From Vibrio tasmaniensis 1F-187 (GTDB taxonomy: Bacteria > Pseudomonadota > Gammaproteobacteria > Enterobacterales > Vibrionaceae): 10,794 bases of DNA. Positions 1-4,879 of this stretch are shown here, piece by piece (positions within the stretch are counted from its first letter, which is position 1; each line of letters opens with the position of its first letter). The notes beneath the pieces are model-generated. The model did not search any database. It was not told the DNA's origin and worked only from the letters and a program-made list of their open reading frames with translations. The stretch is from NCBI RefSeq assembly GCF_000272405.2, contig NZ_AJZM02000276.1, forward strand, positions 1 through 10,794. Direction: 5' to 3'. The translations under genes were made by a program, and so were the position numbers.

Positions 1-39
1 CATAATTTAGACCCATAATACGCAGTGGGATTGTAGGCC

Positions 40-80
40 CCAGATAGTAATGTCACTTTTGAGCCAGATTAAAATGTCAC
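40..80 (+). repeat. Direct repeat in the IS end (two 17-bp copies)
   Basis: CCAGATAGTAATGTCAC at 40-56 and CCAGATTAAAATGTCAC at 64-80 match at 14 of 17 positions, with starts 24 bp apart. Tandem subterminal repeats of this kind commonly serve as transposase binding sites in IS ends; that role is inferred here. Confidence 0.6.
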
Positions 81-140
81 CTTAGCACTGGTTGCTGACT
101 ACATTTCATGTACCAGCTTCGGTTACTAAGGACTACTGAG

Positions 141-281
141 ATGTTGATTGCCATGAGTGAAAAAGAAATTAGTCGATTCAAAGTTATTCAAGACGTCTGT
201 GAACATCGTTTGCGTCGTACTGATGCGGCAGAGATTCTCTGCTTGAGTGTCCGTCACATCCAACGCTTGATGAACCACCAA
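141..281 (+). pseudogene. ISNCY-family transposase, N-terminal fragment
   Basis: The ATG at 141 is preceded by an AAGGA ribosome binding site, and the protein begins MLIAMSEKEISRFKVIQDVC. This, with the following AAEILCLSVRHIQRLMNH segment, is the helix-turn-helix N-terminus typical of ISNCY transposases, which start near MSEKEL and continue with a second DNA-binding segment and a DDE integrase core. Only about 47 codons remain. The frame runs on to 392, but the residues after about position 280 are unrelated and run antisense over the end of the reverse transcriptase gene. It cannot make an active transposase. The fragment suggests the neighbouring defence operon was joined to, or inserted in, an old IS copy. 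Confidence 0.7.
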
Positions 282-321: not shown

Positions 322-1662
322 TTAGACTTTGTAACCAAAATCTAGAAGGTCTGTCTCTAGTTCTTTTACTTGCTTCGCCACACGTTTCTTAAAAGCAATT
401 TCAACATCCTCATTAGACATTCCTTCGGTGCTTTTATTAAAGTATTTAATCAAGATTTCAGCCATCTCGTTGTGATTATAAAGGTCAAAATTTTGAATAT
501 ACTTGGAATCATATTTCTTATGTTTTACTTGATAAAAAGCCTTAGTAAACTTTCTAGGTTTAATGTCTACTTCAAATCGCTTACACAGCATCATGATAAA
601 TGAATCTAGTTCGTGTAATAGCTTTTTATCTGTTATTTCTGAGAAAAAGAATAACCACCCTTTTGATTTTTTATTGAAAATACAGCCAGTTATTCTCAAG
701 TTTAGTCGCCACTCTAAGAACTCTTGGCTCTTCAATTTCGAATGTTTATAACCTGAGAAGATAGACAGAATGGATTCTCTTAACTTGTCTACAGAGCCAC
801 TTCGAGCAGATATAAACTGCTCTTCAAAGTGATAACCAAGATATGTAAAGGATTCATCACTAATAACTCCTATTGAAGACTTATCTGGAGCTTTAATTGG
901 GTCATGAACTTTTAACCTCAAACGTTTGAACTGAGCGATCACATCTTCGGCAATCAATTCACAATCGTTTTTTTTACACAATATTAGAATGTCATCGACA
1001 TACCTATAGTAAGCAATATCTGTTCGAGTATTGTAACGTTTATCTAGATTTGAAAGGAAAATTGCAGCAAGTACGTTGGAGGTTGATAAACCTTGCGGGA
1101 CGCCCTTTTCGTTTAAACGGTCAGAAGCATGAGGCTTGGGTACAGTTGGAGCTGTTATCGAGCTTTCTATTACATTCAGTATTACTTTATCTCTAATGCG
1201 TCTTCTTAAACGTTGTAATAGTAGCTGATGATTTATAGACGGGTAAAAATTAGAAAGGTCAAGTTTGATGAAAGCATCAAACTGCCCTGTAGACATATCA
1301 GTCTTAACGTCTCTAATAACGTTTTGAGGTAAATCAAAGTTGATATCATCTTTGAACCTGATTTGGAGGAAGTCGCATAACGCTCTTAGAGCCAATCTAT
1401 CTCTTATTGTGGGTATAGATATTTCACGAGGTGACTTTCCACGTCCTTTGCTAATTAGTTTTAGCTTGTATTTGGTAAACGAGTAGCTCCCTTCCAGTAC
1501 CTTCCTTTCAATAATACTAATTTGCTCATCTTTCATCTCTCTAAAGACTTGATGATTCATGTTATCTATACCAGTAGCATAGGAAGTAGCGATGTGTTGT
1601 TGGTACAAGTTATTAAGATTATCCAACGAAAATGTTCGGTTGAATTCTGTTATTACTTTCAT
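322..1662 (-). CDS. Defence-associated (UG/DRT-type) reverse transcriptase
   Basis: A 446-residue RNA-directed DNA polymerase. Visible RT blocks in order: motif 1-2 region with RDRLALRAL (about 79-95); motif A, FIKLDLSNFY, with catalytic Asp135; the motif 4 block GVPQGLSTSN (187-196); motif C, YVDD at 221-224, with Asp223 and Asp224; and SFTYLGYHF (271-279), the motif 7 type. The catalytic triad is intact. There is no maturase X domain, HNH endonuclease or protease fused to it; the C-terminal 160 residues are basic and unassigned, probably a thumb and RNA-binding part. It starts 3 nt after the SLATT gene with AGG upstream, so the two are probably translationally coupled. No group II intron RNA ends or diversity-generating repeat were seen. 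I infer phage defence by cDNA synthesis from the upstream RNA. A retron is less likely because its msr-msd RNA would show a different fold. The DNA is visibly AT-rich compared with the fabA region, suggesting horizontal transfer. Confidence 0.88.
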   Translation of the reverse strand: MKVITEFNRTFSLDNLNNLYQQHIATSYATGIDNMNHQVFREMKDEQISIIERKVLEGSYSFTKYKLKLISKGRGKSPREISIPTIRDRLALRALCDFLQIRFKDDINFDLPQNVIRDVKTDMSTGQFDAFIKLDLSNFYPSINHQLLLQRLRRRIRDKVILNVIESSITAPTVPKPHASDRLNEKGVPQGLSTSNVLAAIFLSNLDKRYNTRTDIAYYRYVDDILILCKKNDCELIAEDVIAQFKRLRLKVHDPIKAPDKSSIGVISDESFTYLGYHFEEQFISARSGSVDKLRESILSIFSGYKHSKLKSQEFLEWRLNLRITGCIFNKKSKGWLFFFSEITDKKLLHELDSFIMMLCKRFEVDIKPRKFTKAFYQVKHKKYDSKYIQNFDLYNHNEMAEILIKYFNKSTEGMSNEDVEIAFKKRVAKQVKELETDLLDFGYKV

Positions 1663-1665
1663 GGA

Positions 1666-2223
1666 TTACCTGACTAAAAGAGTCAAAAATGGCAGACCTA
1701 CAAAGGCTGTAAGGATTAAGTATTTTCCAAAAGTAAAAGCTATTACTTCAATTACATTAGGTATAGTTGGAACTCTTGTAAGTGTGCCCATATCCTTTTT
1801 TGAGGTATTTAGCCACTCATTCATCAAAGCACTTTTAAAATCTATATCTTCATGGTTTTCTGAACTACCTAAAATTGTTTTATAGTCAGAGTTAGCTTGG
1901 ATTAGGTTGCAACTAGGGTTACGAAGAGTACCCTCCAGTTCACTTAAATGCTCATAGCAATTTTTTAACGAAACTGCTCGCTCTTTGAAATTCCGGTTAC
2001 TTATATAAAGAGATGCACATAATATTAGAACGGAGAGGATAACCATGACAATTGCGAAATCACCACTGTCTGTAGGTTTTTTTAGTTCATAAATTGACAT
2101 GCAAACCGTGAAAGATGAGTACCAGAGCAGAATTAATTGTGAAGCAAAGTCATTAGATTGGAGTCGCTTGGCAGCTTGGATTCTTGCCTTTCTAGTCCAC
2201 CATACTGTGTCTTTAAAAGACAT
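1666..2223 (-). CDS. SLATT-domain membrane protein, partner of the reverse transcriptase
   Basis: A 185-residue protein with a basic, Trp-containing N-terminus (WWTRKARIQAAKRL), two close hydrophobic helices (about 27-46 and 55-75), a soluble Lys/Glu/Ser-rich middle (76-152) and a third hydrophobic helix at the C-terminus (about 157-183). This matches SLATT proteins, whose paired N-terminal helices are thought to form membrane pores or perturb membranes when a conflict system is triggered; one SLATT family (SLATT_5) is known for association with reverse transcriptases. It begins with a near-perfect GGAGGTGA ribosome binding site 6 nt before ATG and ends 3 nt before the RT start. I infer that it is the toxic effector of the pair, kept inactive until the RT product or a phage signal appears. 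The SLATT assignment is from topology and context, without a profile search. Confidence 0.75.
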   Translation of the reverse strand: MSFKDTVWWTRKARIQAAKRLQSNDFASQLILLWYSSFTVCMSIYELKKPTDSGDFAIVMVILSVLILCASLYISNRNFKERAVSLKNCYEHLSELEGTLRNPSCNLIQANSDYKTILGSSENHEDIDFKSALMNEWLNTSKKDMGTLTRVPTIPNVIEVIAFTFGKYLILTAFVGLPFLTLLVR

Positions 2224-2247
2224 ATAATCACCTCCAGAGAAAAGAGT

Positions 2248-2373
2248 GTGAGGCGTCGTTTTTAGTAATAATAAGTAACGCCTATTGCTAGACTAGTTCG
2301 AGGAACTAGAGGTAAAACCTCTCAAAATTAGTAGCACCCATTGCTGGATGACTGGCAAGCCAGTCCGCCTCAC
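2248..2373 (-). ncRNA. Structured non-coding RNA of the RT system (candidate template)
   Basis: Read on the minus strand, GTGAGGCG at 2373-2366 pairs perfectly with CGCCTCAC at 2255-2248, closing a 126-nt RNA. Inside, in order: GACTGGC-TT-GCCAGTC (2365-2350); a 5-bp hairpin with a GCAA loop (2349-2336); an unpaired stretch (2335-2323); AGAGGT-TTT-ACCTCT (2322-2308); CTAGTTC-CTC-GAACTAG (2309-2293, sharing two bases with the previous hairpin); a second GCAA-loop hairpin (2292-2281); and an unpaired AT-rich stretch (2280-2256) with TTACT repeated. The promoter places the start at the first base of the closing stem. It lies just upstream of the SLATT ribosome binding site, so it is probably the 5' part of the operon transcript or is processed from it. 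A template role for the RT is inferred. No small ORF with a good start was seen in it. Confidence 0.72.
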
Positions 2374-2379
2374 GCGTAG

Positions 2380-2407
2380 ATTATATATACCCCTAATTGT
2401 TATGCAA
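2380..2407 (-). promoter_or_regulatory. Promoter of the ncRNA-SLATT-RT operon
   Basis: On the minus strand TTGCAT (2407-2402) and TATAAT (2385-2380) are separated by 16 bp. The start predicted about 7 nt downstream falls at 2373, the first base of the closing stem of the ncRNA. The agreement of the two independent signals supports both. Confidence 0.65.
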
Positions 2408-2513: not shown

Positions 2514-2633
2514 TTACACCAAACGATTCAACGTGCGGGCCATCTCTAAGCTCTTCCTGTCACCGGCCCAAATGATTGATACTTCAAGCTCCCTAGCCGC
2601 CTGTTTAAAAGCTTTGCTAATCACTTCAGCCAT
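2514..2633 (-). CDS. Short ORF in the toxin position after the Phd-type antitoxin
   Basis: A 39-residue frame beginning MAEVISKAFKQAARELEVSI, overlapping the end of the antitoxin gene, as toxin genes of Phd/YefM modules usually do. Vibrio ParE/RelE toxins often begin MAEVI, but nothing after residue 5 resembles the usual ~95-residue RelE/ParE fold, and the frame stops at 2514. It may be a decayed toxin whose body was deleted, or no gene at all. Beyond it, 2408-2513 has no convincing gene. Confidence 0.3.
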   Translation of the reverse strand: MAEVISKAFKQAARELEVSIIWAGDRKSLEMARTLNRLV

Positions 2634-2878
2634 TTTGACATCTTGTTTCTAGCTTCTTCATGACTCAGAGCCTTACTTTCAGAAATGGTACGCTCACCAC
2701 GTGCGATCCCTTCCAGGATAGCCAAGCGGTTTTGCATAAACTGGTAGTCGTCAACATCTACGAGATACGCAGAGGGTCTGCCATGCTCGGTGATCAACAC
2801 GGGCTCTTTGGTGTCGTGCAGATCGGCTAGGATTTTGGTCGCTTGACGCTTAAGGGAAGTAACGAGCTCAACTTTCAT
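2621..2878 (-). CDS. Phd/YefM-family antitoxin
   Basis: An 85-residue protein starting MKVELVTSLKRQATKILADL. The N-terminal half has the Phd/YefM fold signature: LKRQATKIL, then EPVLITEHGRPSAYLVDVDDYQ, the phrase that forms the DNA-binding dimer. The C-terminal part (RTISESKALSHEEARNKMSKWL) is the flexible toxin-neutralising segment. I chose the ATG at 2878 because GGGAG lies 8 nt upstream; a start at 2893 would lack a ribosome binding site. Such proteins bind the palindrome in their own promoter, and a perfect one is present upstream. The expected RelE/ParE/Doc partner is missing or reduced to a 39-residue frame, so this looks like an orphan antitoxin, possibly an anti-addiction relic or a regulator. 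Confidence 0.85.
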   Translation of the reverse strand: MKVELVTSLKRQATKILADLHDTKEPVLITEHGRPSAYLVDVDDYQFMQNRLAILEGIARGERTISESKALSHEEARNKMSKWLK

Positions 2879-3142
2879 GAGGATAACTCCCATATAAGAT
2901 TAAAGTGATACTGTTGTATCACTTTCAATCTTGCAAGATTAACGCATAAAAATACCAAGTGTCGACAATCACGCTCAAATACTTGTCGTTTATGGGAACA
3001 AGGGGATATACGATTTTGTAATCGCCGTACCCTCGCCTGATGCTTCTCATTTTCGAGTTCATCTTTACGCTTTAACGCCTCAACTTTGTTTTGATTAAGC
3101 AGTTTCCCTACCCAACACCTTGTTGTGTTCGGCTAAAGGCAT
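2875..3142 (-). pseudogene. Frameshifted small coiled-coil reading frame, unrecognised
   Basis: From ATG at 3142 the frame reads MPLAEHNKVLGR and then stops early. Removing one G near 3107 joins it to a long open frame, KLLNQNKVEALKRKDELE and onward through a Lys/Glu/Arg-rich helical stretch that runs to a stop at 2875 overlapping the antitoxin start. The charged heptad-like composition looks like real coding sequence broken by a one-base insertion. I do not recognise the family. The part below about 2990 overlaps the antitoxin promoter and may not be coding. Confidence 0.3.
2902..2925 (-). promoter_or_regulatory. Palindromic operator and promoter of the antitoxin gene
   Basis: AAAGTGATAC and GTATCACTTT form perfect 10-bp arms around 4 bp. 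On the minus strand a TTGAAA (2929-2924) and a TTTAAT (2905-2900) 18 bp apart make a plausible promoter that the palindrome overlaps, the arrangement expected for Phd autorepression. The start codon is at 2878. Confidence 0.6.
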
Positions 3143-4004: not shown

Positions 4005-4276
4005 ATCATTATTGGTTCACTTAACTTCCTTTACATTGCCTCCAAATATAGACCTATTCTTCCATCAATATAAAGTTACGTTGCAACTTATTAAAAAAAC
4101 CAGCGCTATTGCAAGATAAATCACTCAAACAGGCTGCTATTTCGTGTTTAAATTTTGATCTATCAATCAGTTATATGATTAAACTTGGTGACTAAGCAAG
4201 CAAACACTATGCATTCACGCTTACATTATGAATTATAGTGTTAACATCAGACAATGTTGTAAACCAGGTGTTTGAT
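4005..4276. other. Intergenic stretch between the OMP and DUF2971 genes
   Basis: Together with 3923-4004 this is a 354-base gap. Beyond the terminator I see AT-rich sequence with no gene. A GTG at 4238 is in frame with the next gene but has no ribosome binding site. TATAGTG at 4234-4240 resembles the core of the 17-bp repeat found at 5014 and 8746. Confidence 0.5.
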
Positions 4277-4879
4277 ATGTTGCCTAAACTTTATAAGTTC
4301 AGATCTCTTCACGATAGAAACATACAATCGATATCCGAGTGTTCGTTGTGGTTTGATTCCGCTAAGACCTTTAATAACCCTTTTGAATCTCATCACCTGT
4401 TCAACAAAGAACTTCAGAACGACTTCAAGGTTATGTGCTTCTCTCAATCGAATGACCATCCCATACTTTGGTCTCAGTATGGCGATAACTTTAAAGGTAT
4501 GTGTATTGAGTATGATCTTAACTGTTATCACGGTGAGGCAGATCTCAATTGCTTTGAAGTTCAGTATACTGACAACCCAAGCATGCTTAGTTCTCCTTCG
4601 CTAGTTGACTTAAAAGCATCGAAATTAGCCGCGAGCGTACTTGGAATCAAACATTCAAACTGGCGTTACGAAAAAGAATATCGCTGGGTACTGCCCAATG
4701 AAGAGATTATTGGCAACAAGCTGTATCTGAATAAAGAGTGTATAAGCTCTGTGATTCTCTCAGAACACGCTCCTGCCGATAGAAAACTAAAGGTACTGAT
4801 GACTTGCCAACACCTCGGCATCCCAGTTAAACACGCTGTCGCTAAACAAGACTCGTGTACATTTGGCACCTTCTGTTAA
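4277..4879 (+). CDS. DUF2971 family protein
   Basis: A 200-residue soluble protein of uncharacterised family DUF2971. Family marks visible: LYKFRS (5-10), the NPFE motif (34-37), CFSQSNDHPILWSQYGDNF (54-72) followed by KGMCIEYD, and WRYEKEYRWV (129-138). The start at ATG 4277 is preferred: AGGTG lies 8 nt upstream and the family usually begins just before LYKYRS, whereas the in-frame GTG at 4238 would add 13 residues without a ribosome binding site. The family's biochemical role is not established; it is common in accessory regions and sometimes beside defence genes, and here it sits about 2 kb from an RT-SLATT module. No signal peptide or membrane helix. The C-terminal tail is Cys-containing (QDSCTFGTFC). 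Confidence 0.8.
   Translation: MLPKLYKFRSLHDRNIQSISECSLWFDSAKTFNNPFESHHLFNKELQNDFKVMCFSQSNDHPILWSQYGDNFKGMCIEYDLNCYHGEADLNCFEVQYTDNPSMLSSPSLVDLKASKLAASVLGIKHSNWRYEKEYRWVLPNEEIIGNKLYLNKECISSVILSEHAPADRKLKVLMTCQHLGIPVKHAVAKQDSCTFGTFC

Follow-up and report, generated by a model that had tools for sequence, protein, structure and literature searches.

Positions 322 to 2407 of the window, by which we mean the whole 10,794-nucleotide stretch of Vibrio DNA analyzed here (one entire contig, C275 of genome G000), very probably carry a DRT10 (UG17) phage-defense operon that would work as the published Escherichia coli systems do, a reading that draws on analogy to those systems. DRT10 is described in a 2025 preprint as the combination of a UG17 reverse transcriptase (RT), a SLATT protein and an upstream non-coding RNA (ncRNA) (PMC12632851). 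According to the same source, three E. coli DRT10 systems confer a protection against phages that depends on RT activity and SLATT, and in Eco3DRT10 on the ncRNA as well; the RT itself serves as primer of the cDNA, which consists of tandem repeats templated by a segment A-B, with realignment at a segment A' (PMC12632851). An earlier note on this DNA had proposed an ncRNA-SLATT-RT module of the DRT10 or a sister type, with the two genes 3 nt apart. The open reading frames (from which the 3-nt separation is read), the protein profiles and a covariance model agree on this module (Table 1), and the UG17 score of the RT, the SLATT protein and the upstream ncRNA together favor DRT10 over a sister type. 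The subtype can be named because the RT matches UG17, and UG17 is DRT10 in PMC12632851.

Table 1. Features of the predicted DRT10 operon and its border in the window.
Feature	Position	Strand	Basis
ISNCY-family insertion sequence remnant bordering the module	16..276	+	plasmid matches
UG17 (DRT10) reverse transcriptase, 446 aa	322..1662	-	PADLOC RT_UG17, E 1e-162
Y444, predicted protein primer, followed by K445-V446	331..333	-	alignments; analogy to Eco1DRT10 Y444 (PMC12632851)
Catalytic YVDD, residues 221-224	991..1002	-	alignments
Catalytic D135	codon 1258-1260	-	alignments
SLATT_5 membrane protein, 185 aa, putative effector	1666..2223	-	profiles, hydrophobicity
Ribosome-binding-like site GGAGGU	2230..2235	-	read from sequence
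DRT10-type ncRNA, 126 nt	2248..2373	-	held-out covariance model E 9.4e-22, pair changes, fold
ncRNA closing stem	2366-2373 with 2248-2255	-	counted by hand
ncRNA SL1	2350-2365	-	counted by hand
ncRNA SL2	2336-2349	-	counted by hand
ncRNA linker	2323-2335	-	counted by hand
ncRNA SL3	2308-2322	-	counted by hand
ncRNA SL4	2295-2307	-	counted by hand
ncRNA SL5	2280-2293	-	counted by hand
ncRNA template loop	2256-2279	-	counted by hand
Predicted template A-B, ACU-UAUUAUU, 10 nt	2267..2276	-	place after SL5 and shared GUU; analogy to PMC12632851
A', ACU, realignment segment	2264..2266	-	loop repeat tests
-10 box TATAAT	2380..2385	-	perfect, 6/6; ends 6 nt 5' of the ncRNA 5' G
-35-like hexamer TTGCAT	2402..2407	-	weak, 3/6; read from sequence

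The RT is matched over residues 2-441 by the PADLOC profile RT_UG17 with 539.9 bits, the next PADLOC profiles being a generic RT (120.8 bits) and Drt3a (108.1 bits). An alignment of 18 rows shows D135 and Y221-V-D-D224 without variation; of the 153 rows of a wider one, all have D135 and 148 have YVDD, which bears out the intact catalytic residues that had been proposed. Among 7995 candidates scored, 1663 proteins matched the RT at E≤1e-40. Its AlphaFold2 model has a mean pLDDT of 85.0, and the nearest solved folds retrieved with Foldseek are group II-type RTs, followed by DRT9 and DRT2; matches of this modeled structure show an RT fold and nothing finer. A group II intron RT or an RT of a diversity-generating retroelement, lying beside an unrelated membrane gene, could draw on these top Foldseek hits and on the 142.5 bits scored with the NCBIfam group II maturase model. 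That score is below the model's cut-off of 300, however; in Pfam, RVT_1 alone was found and no maturase domain; and the SLATT protein and the ncRNA are conserved together with an RT that UG17 captures far better. We therefore regard this alternative as scarcely credible, and a diversity-generating retroelement appears unlikely given the UG17 score. Siding with the group II enzymes is what the earlier note had named as speaking against its proposal; the profile competition, which stood in for a tree of reference UG/DRT RTs, favors UG17 instead.

The three-helix SLATT_5 protein claimed for the neighboring gene is supported by matches to the SLATT_5 families of Pfam (E 1e-30) and NCBIfam (151.5 bits, cut-off 60), by the PADLOC profile RTasSLATT (E 5e-54) and by three hydrophobic peaks at residues 26-44, 56-74 and 157-175, which are predicted transmembrane helices. 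A search of the PDB for SLATT gave no sequence match at E≤1. SLATT_5 is reported to adjoin 82% of the UG17 RTs in complete genomes (PMC8934634), and in our first locus set a BLASTP match to the window's SLATT protein was found at 20 of the 26 loci with an RT hit. The six others are L022-L025, whose RTs have 544-684 residues, L005, which is a short contig, and L003, which has a weak RT hit. The UG17 profile matches the RTs of L022-L025 (E 1e-97 to 1e-111), and the fetched pieces hold no BLASTP match to SLATT. At L004, from Thalassospira, the SLATT match (E 4e-5) lies 3' of the RT gene, while elsewhere it lies 5'.

All parts of the operon are on the minus strand and follow one another in the order -10 box, RNA, ribosome-binding-like site, SLATT gene and RT gene. 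The promoter claimed previously stands in its -10 box, with TATAAT matching at all six positions (2385-2380), a match that is found at a spacing of 2-9 at only 0.1% of 5000 random places in the window. Its other half is weaker: the -35-like TTGCAT, 16 nt away from the -10 box, agrees at three of six positions, and a strict promoter scan consequently did not list the pair. The same scan returned four promoter-like sites in the window, fewer than in shuffled sequences (7.1). No intrinsic terminator was found between 200 and 2600.

The ncRNA is conserved, with compensatory changes, upstream of SLATT. A covariance model from which the window was held out hit the minus strand at exactly the coordinates that had been put forward for a 126-nt RNA (89.7 bits, with E-values that are rough because the calibration was short). 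Three close loci, L036, L071 of E. coli and L029, supplied the sequences for this model, whose structure is their RNAalifold consensus minus one small helix. Folding of 2243-2378 on the minus strand gives -44.3 kcal/mol (z -3.8, none of 200 shuffles as low), and a longer stretch, 2224-2400, reaches z -2.4, with 3 of 200 shuffles as low. No second copy was detected by the model in the 435 contigs of the genome at E≤0.001, and no Rfam family reached its gathering score in the window. Across 46 sources the model gave 27 matches; 13 of the 19 sources without one (L012-L017, L021, L027, L038-L041 and L073) possess a UG17-like RT, 33-41% identical to that of the window and mostly ending in Ser, together with SLATT. 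The RNA model therefore covers the branch of the window and not the whole family.

A MAFFT alignment of 13 ncRNAs yielded a poor consensus of 8 pairs because the stem-loops vary in length, and it was replaced by a structural alignment made with the covariance model. Across its 17 distinct rows, 92.7% of the cells are paired (shuffles, 73.3%), and both partners change in 24 of 35 pairs (shuffles, 18.3); the number of pair types was not above that of shuffles (53 versus 50.2, with 88 of 500 as high). Since an alignment of this kind is fitted to the structure, such counts lean toward it, and controls with slid partners served as a safeguard: sliding by 1-3 columns lowers pairing to 32-46%, and the covariation score of 0.655 compares with 0.07-0.16 for slid partners. 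Folded singly, the RNAs of 13 loci show several hairpins in a conserved order together with a long closing stem; SL4/SL5 of L036, L071 and L029 deviate if the flanks are included in the fold. The relatives share a linker with ...ACUAAUU... between SL2 and SL3 and G-U-U after SL5, except that L019, L020 and L067 have GUUC after SL5 and that L011 departs in the linker. The word ACUAA occurs in the window's linker, ACUAAUUUUG, and again on the 3' side of its template loop (ACUAAAA), as is the case in several relatives, possibly by chance in an AU-rich RNA.

The template loop of the window reads GUUACUUAUUAUUACUAAAAACG and is free of a poly-U run. After SL5 and GUU it continues with ACUUAUUAUU-ACU, so that A is ACU, B is UAUUAUU and A' is ACU; when the flanking UU is counted, UUACU is shared by 2264-2268 and 2274-2278, 10 nt apart. 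By analogy to the E. coli systems, the predicted cDNA repeat of the window is (AATAATAAGT)n. Tested by itself, the window shows an A-B-A' repeat that is weak and short of significance (P 0.09; 0.37 in an anchored test). Pooled over 15 loops, A-A' repeats sum to a length of 62 versus 39.4 ± 3.9, a value attained by none of 4000 shuffles, and the anchored test on 16 loops gives 50 versus 33.5 ± 4.1 (P 0.0005); these pooled P values are optimistic because the loops are related. The 15 loops were delimited by eye and leave out L017, L041, L027, L038, L040 and near-identical ones; the anchored test took one row per distinct 16-nt loop and includes the doubtful L017 and L041. Singly, only 3 of the 15 loops reach P < 0.05; the repeat is weak or missing in L018, L019, L035 and L015, and the unscored loops of L027, L038 and L040 show none by eye. 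The 15 loops vary in sequence, and their best-fitting repeat length is 7-11 nt, with some weak fits. A Fisher test on the loops (P 0.015) carries no weight, as its table was filled by hand and it ignores relatedness.

The product bears on whether the operon might be a sister UG/DRT type that makes something else, such as a homopolymer in the manner of DRT9 or a de novo gene as in DRT2. DRT9 and DRT2 are indeed among the solved relatives found by Foldseek, and the RNA-sense repeat of the window, UUACUUAUUA, holds no stop codon in any frame, as is true of 7 of the 15 loops, the window included. Against this, the PADLOC Drt9 and Drt2 profiles score 61 bits each, far below UG17; a poly-U loop is lacking; the sense strand has stops in all three frames in 6 of the 15 loops (and in one frame in 2 of 15); and the second strand is described as barely detectable in DRT10 (PMC12632851). 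We consider a sister type very improbable. As a general feature, an endless reading frame of the DRT2 kind was rejected on account of the loops with stops in three frames.

The published primers are Ser456 in Eco3DRT10 and, likely, Tyr444 in Eco1DRT10 (PMC12632851). The window's RT terminates in FGY444-K-V, and Y444, which aligns with the terminal Tyr of its relatives, is by analogy the likely primer. The 120 nearest RTs, a set to which the window's cluster belongs, have Tyr as the very last residue in 82 cases and Ser within the last five in another 34; in the remaining four (the window, P0058, P0090 and P0107), Tyr is followed by a tail of one or two residues that lacks Ser. It is these figures, together with a pLDDT below 50 for residues 440-446, the C-terminal tail being unplaced in the model, that would accommodate a system which is DRT10 by descent but inactive or primed otherwise, either because the K-V tail blocks Y444 or because RNA or another residue primes. 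This is improbable in our judgment: the RT gene is intact and recurs with 100% and 99.1% identity in two further genomes, the published enzymes use a C-terminal Ser or, likely, Tyr (PMC12632851), and at least one residue follows the aligned Tyr in 16 of the 120 RTs, the window included.

How the two kinds of C-terminus are distributed was followed on a 66-row tree comprising every third of the 120 proteins, nine proteins picked partly by their C-terminus and 20 locus RTs. A Ser-terminal label, which excludes RTs with Tyr among the last four residues, requires 8 changes, at least 5 of them forced by well-supported branches of a tree whose long branches meet near the base. The Tyr-terminal label requires 10 changes, at least 7 of them forced, though some are mere tails after Tyr, the count of which is inflated by the hand-picked rows. 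RTs that end in Ser without a nearby Tyr thus appear, from these sequences, to have been gained or lost several times.

Among known systems, the E. coli representatives of DRT10 stand nearest to the window. Eco1DRT10, Eco2DRT10 and Eco3DRT10, like the window, combine a UG17 RT and SLATT with an ncRNA upstream of SLATT, and their ncRNAs have a central stem, small stem-loops and a template loop after SL5 (PMC12632851). The window may further share their A-B-A' pattern (P 0.09 for the window alone, as given above), and like them it has a C-terminal hydroxyl residue; it differs in its Vibrionaceae host, its predicted repeat AATAATAAGT and a predicted primer Tyr two residues before the end, and by this primer it stands nearer to Eco1DRT10 (Y444) than to the serine-primed Eco3DRT10 (S456) (PMC12632851). 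A further E. coli UG17-SLATT locus comes from strains 33F4 and 377323_2f (L070 and L071). The L071 RT resembles that of the window (54.5% identical, 444 residues, Tyr end), and its ncRNA has the same architecture, with 137.9 bits from model R1, which was partly built from L071. Unlike the window, L070 and L071 lie next to tRNA-Arg and a tyrosine recombinase, and from their loop, GUU-ACACGAUU-AC, one would expect a repeat of 8 nt in which A has 2 nt; this fits Eco1DRT10 as printed, a likeness drawn from the printed text alone (PMC12632851). The recombinase is annotated as a pseudogene in L071, and the locus is located downstream of an Ogr/Delta-like gene.

DRT9 shares with DRT10 a Class 2 UG RT, an ncRNA of similar shape and protein priming (PMC12632851); it differs by its poly-U template and homopolymer product, and the window's RT scores only the 61 bits given above with Drt9. 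Telomerase resembles DRT10 in having a template plus alignment segment and a stem as 5' template boundary (PMC12632851), but there the substrate DNA primes and the enzyme is far larger; no telomere role is claimed for the window. Vibrio does not occur in the main text of PMC12632851; its supplementary tables, outside that scope, may list the window's system. DRT10 is also mentioned in PMC13174585, a paper on DRT3, and the passages drawn from a Vibrio cholerae defense paper (PMC12409358) hold nothing on the UG17-SLATT system. In the open-licence literature, subscription papers lying outside this scope, we recognized no further primary paper on it.

Our genus search covered 227 genomes, eight of which, the window's own included, have a UG17 RT at E≤1e-60; some of the other relative searches used even draws or samples of larger groups. 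The two further genomes with 100% and 99.1% identical RTs belong to this genus and carry near-identical modules. Two further RTs are encoded in the window's genome, on contigs C120 (L002) and C73 (L003); one, of 400 residues, is by eye of the group II intron type and the other has 537 residues. E. coli relatives were recovered neither with the window DNA nor with L029 in near mode; L036 in distant mode found them in 5 of 5426 genomes (69% of the query, about 68% identity). Phages gave no match at E≤1e-20, and viral contigs scanned singly with P0041, P0028 and P0002 gave no confirmed relative. Three viral-contig RTs (L043, L044 and L046) are 30-34% identical to that of the window and follow a reading frame of 188-203 residues; the gap of 284-339 nt between frame and RT could hold an RNA, which would not be upstream of both.

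The insertion sequence remnant reported beside the module was recovered: two plasmid matches, 69-70% identical and covering 16-249 and 32-276, are annotated as ISNCY family transposase, and four of the six matched records are without annotation there. In genome G090, the module is flanked on one side by a FIST-protein/histidine-kinase operon and on the other by an outer-membrane protein gene, beyond which follow DUF2971, MatP and a LonB-like gene and, after the latter, what we take to be a fabA-like gene. In G155, about 0.9 kb without a match to the module separates the kinase from the outer-membrane gene. The place beside the antitoxin gene is filled in G092 by a NACHT protein with a SNaCT11 domain, phage-like genes, one Zot-domain protein and, by eye, a transposase-like piece; in G140 it holds a 460-residue transposase gene, the edge of which matches 1-78 of the window. 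From this sequence comparison, which covers three hand-chosen genomes and in which the pieces of L087 and L088 stop short of the kinase-side border, the spot seems to exchange defense and phage genes. At the same spot of a related genome, L087 encodes (9359-11149) a NACHT protein with a SNaCT11 domain near phage-like genes and without a PADLOC match. Beside the variable spot, the window encodes a DUF2971 protein (4238-4879, plus strand) that matches the PADLOC candidate family PDC-S31 (E 6e-38); its DNA also matches genus genomes without a UG17 hit, e.g., G214 and G167. A Phd/YefM-type antitoxin gene (2621-2893, minus strand) adjoins the module and is followed, by eye, by a short partner frame; the two look like an incomplete toxin-antitoxin pair.

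On the model of the published E. coli systems (PMC12632851), the RT would bind the ncRNA and use the hydroxyl of Y444 to prime DNA synthesis. Copying would run through the 10-nt A-B segment (ACUUAUUAUU) as far as a limit imposed by SL5, upon which the cDNA 3' end (...AGT) would dissociate and pair again with A' (ACU) so that the cycle repeats, yielding an RT-linked single-stranded (AATAATAAGT)n. SLATT would be the membrane effector, its toxicity probably held by the cDNA and released on infection, resulting in abortive infection. The control of SLATT by cDNA is a discussion proposal in PMC12632851, which calls the matter unanswered, and the step from SLATT release to abortive infection is likewise presented there as an unproven proposal.

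The kind of system is already known as DRT10; modestly new are the predicted repeat, the primer Tyr with a two-residue tail, the recurrent switching between Tyr and Ser, and the variable genomic spot. The window adds an intact, probably marine-vibrio member to a type that PMC12632851 connects, through its RT, with how telomerase arose, and it yields a specific prediction, a 10-nt cDNA repeat and a primer Tyr two residues from the end. We tentatively entertain, as a possibility that we would not yet favor, that the DNA product and the protein anchor of DRT10 are exchangeable, and that SLATT is gated by RT-anchored repetitive single-stranded DNA as such, irrespective of its sequence; on this view the window's system would attach (AATAATAAGT)n to a non-terminal Tyr. 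Members that differ in primer position or repeat help to distinguish the requirements of SLATT from mere variation.
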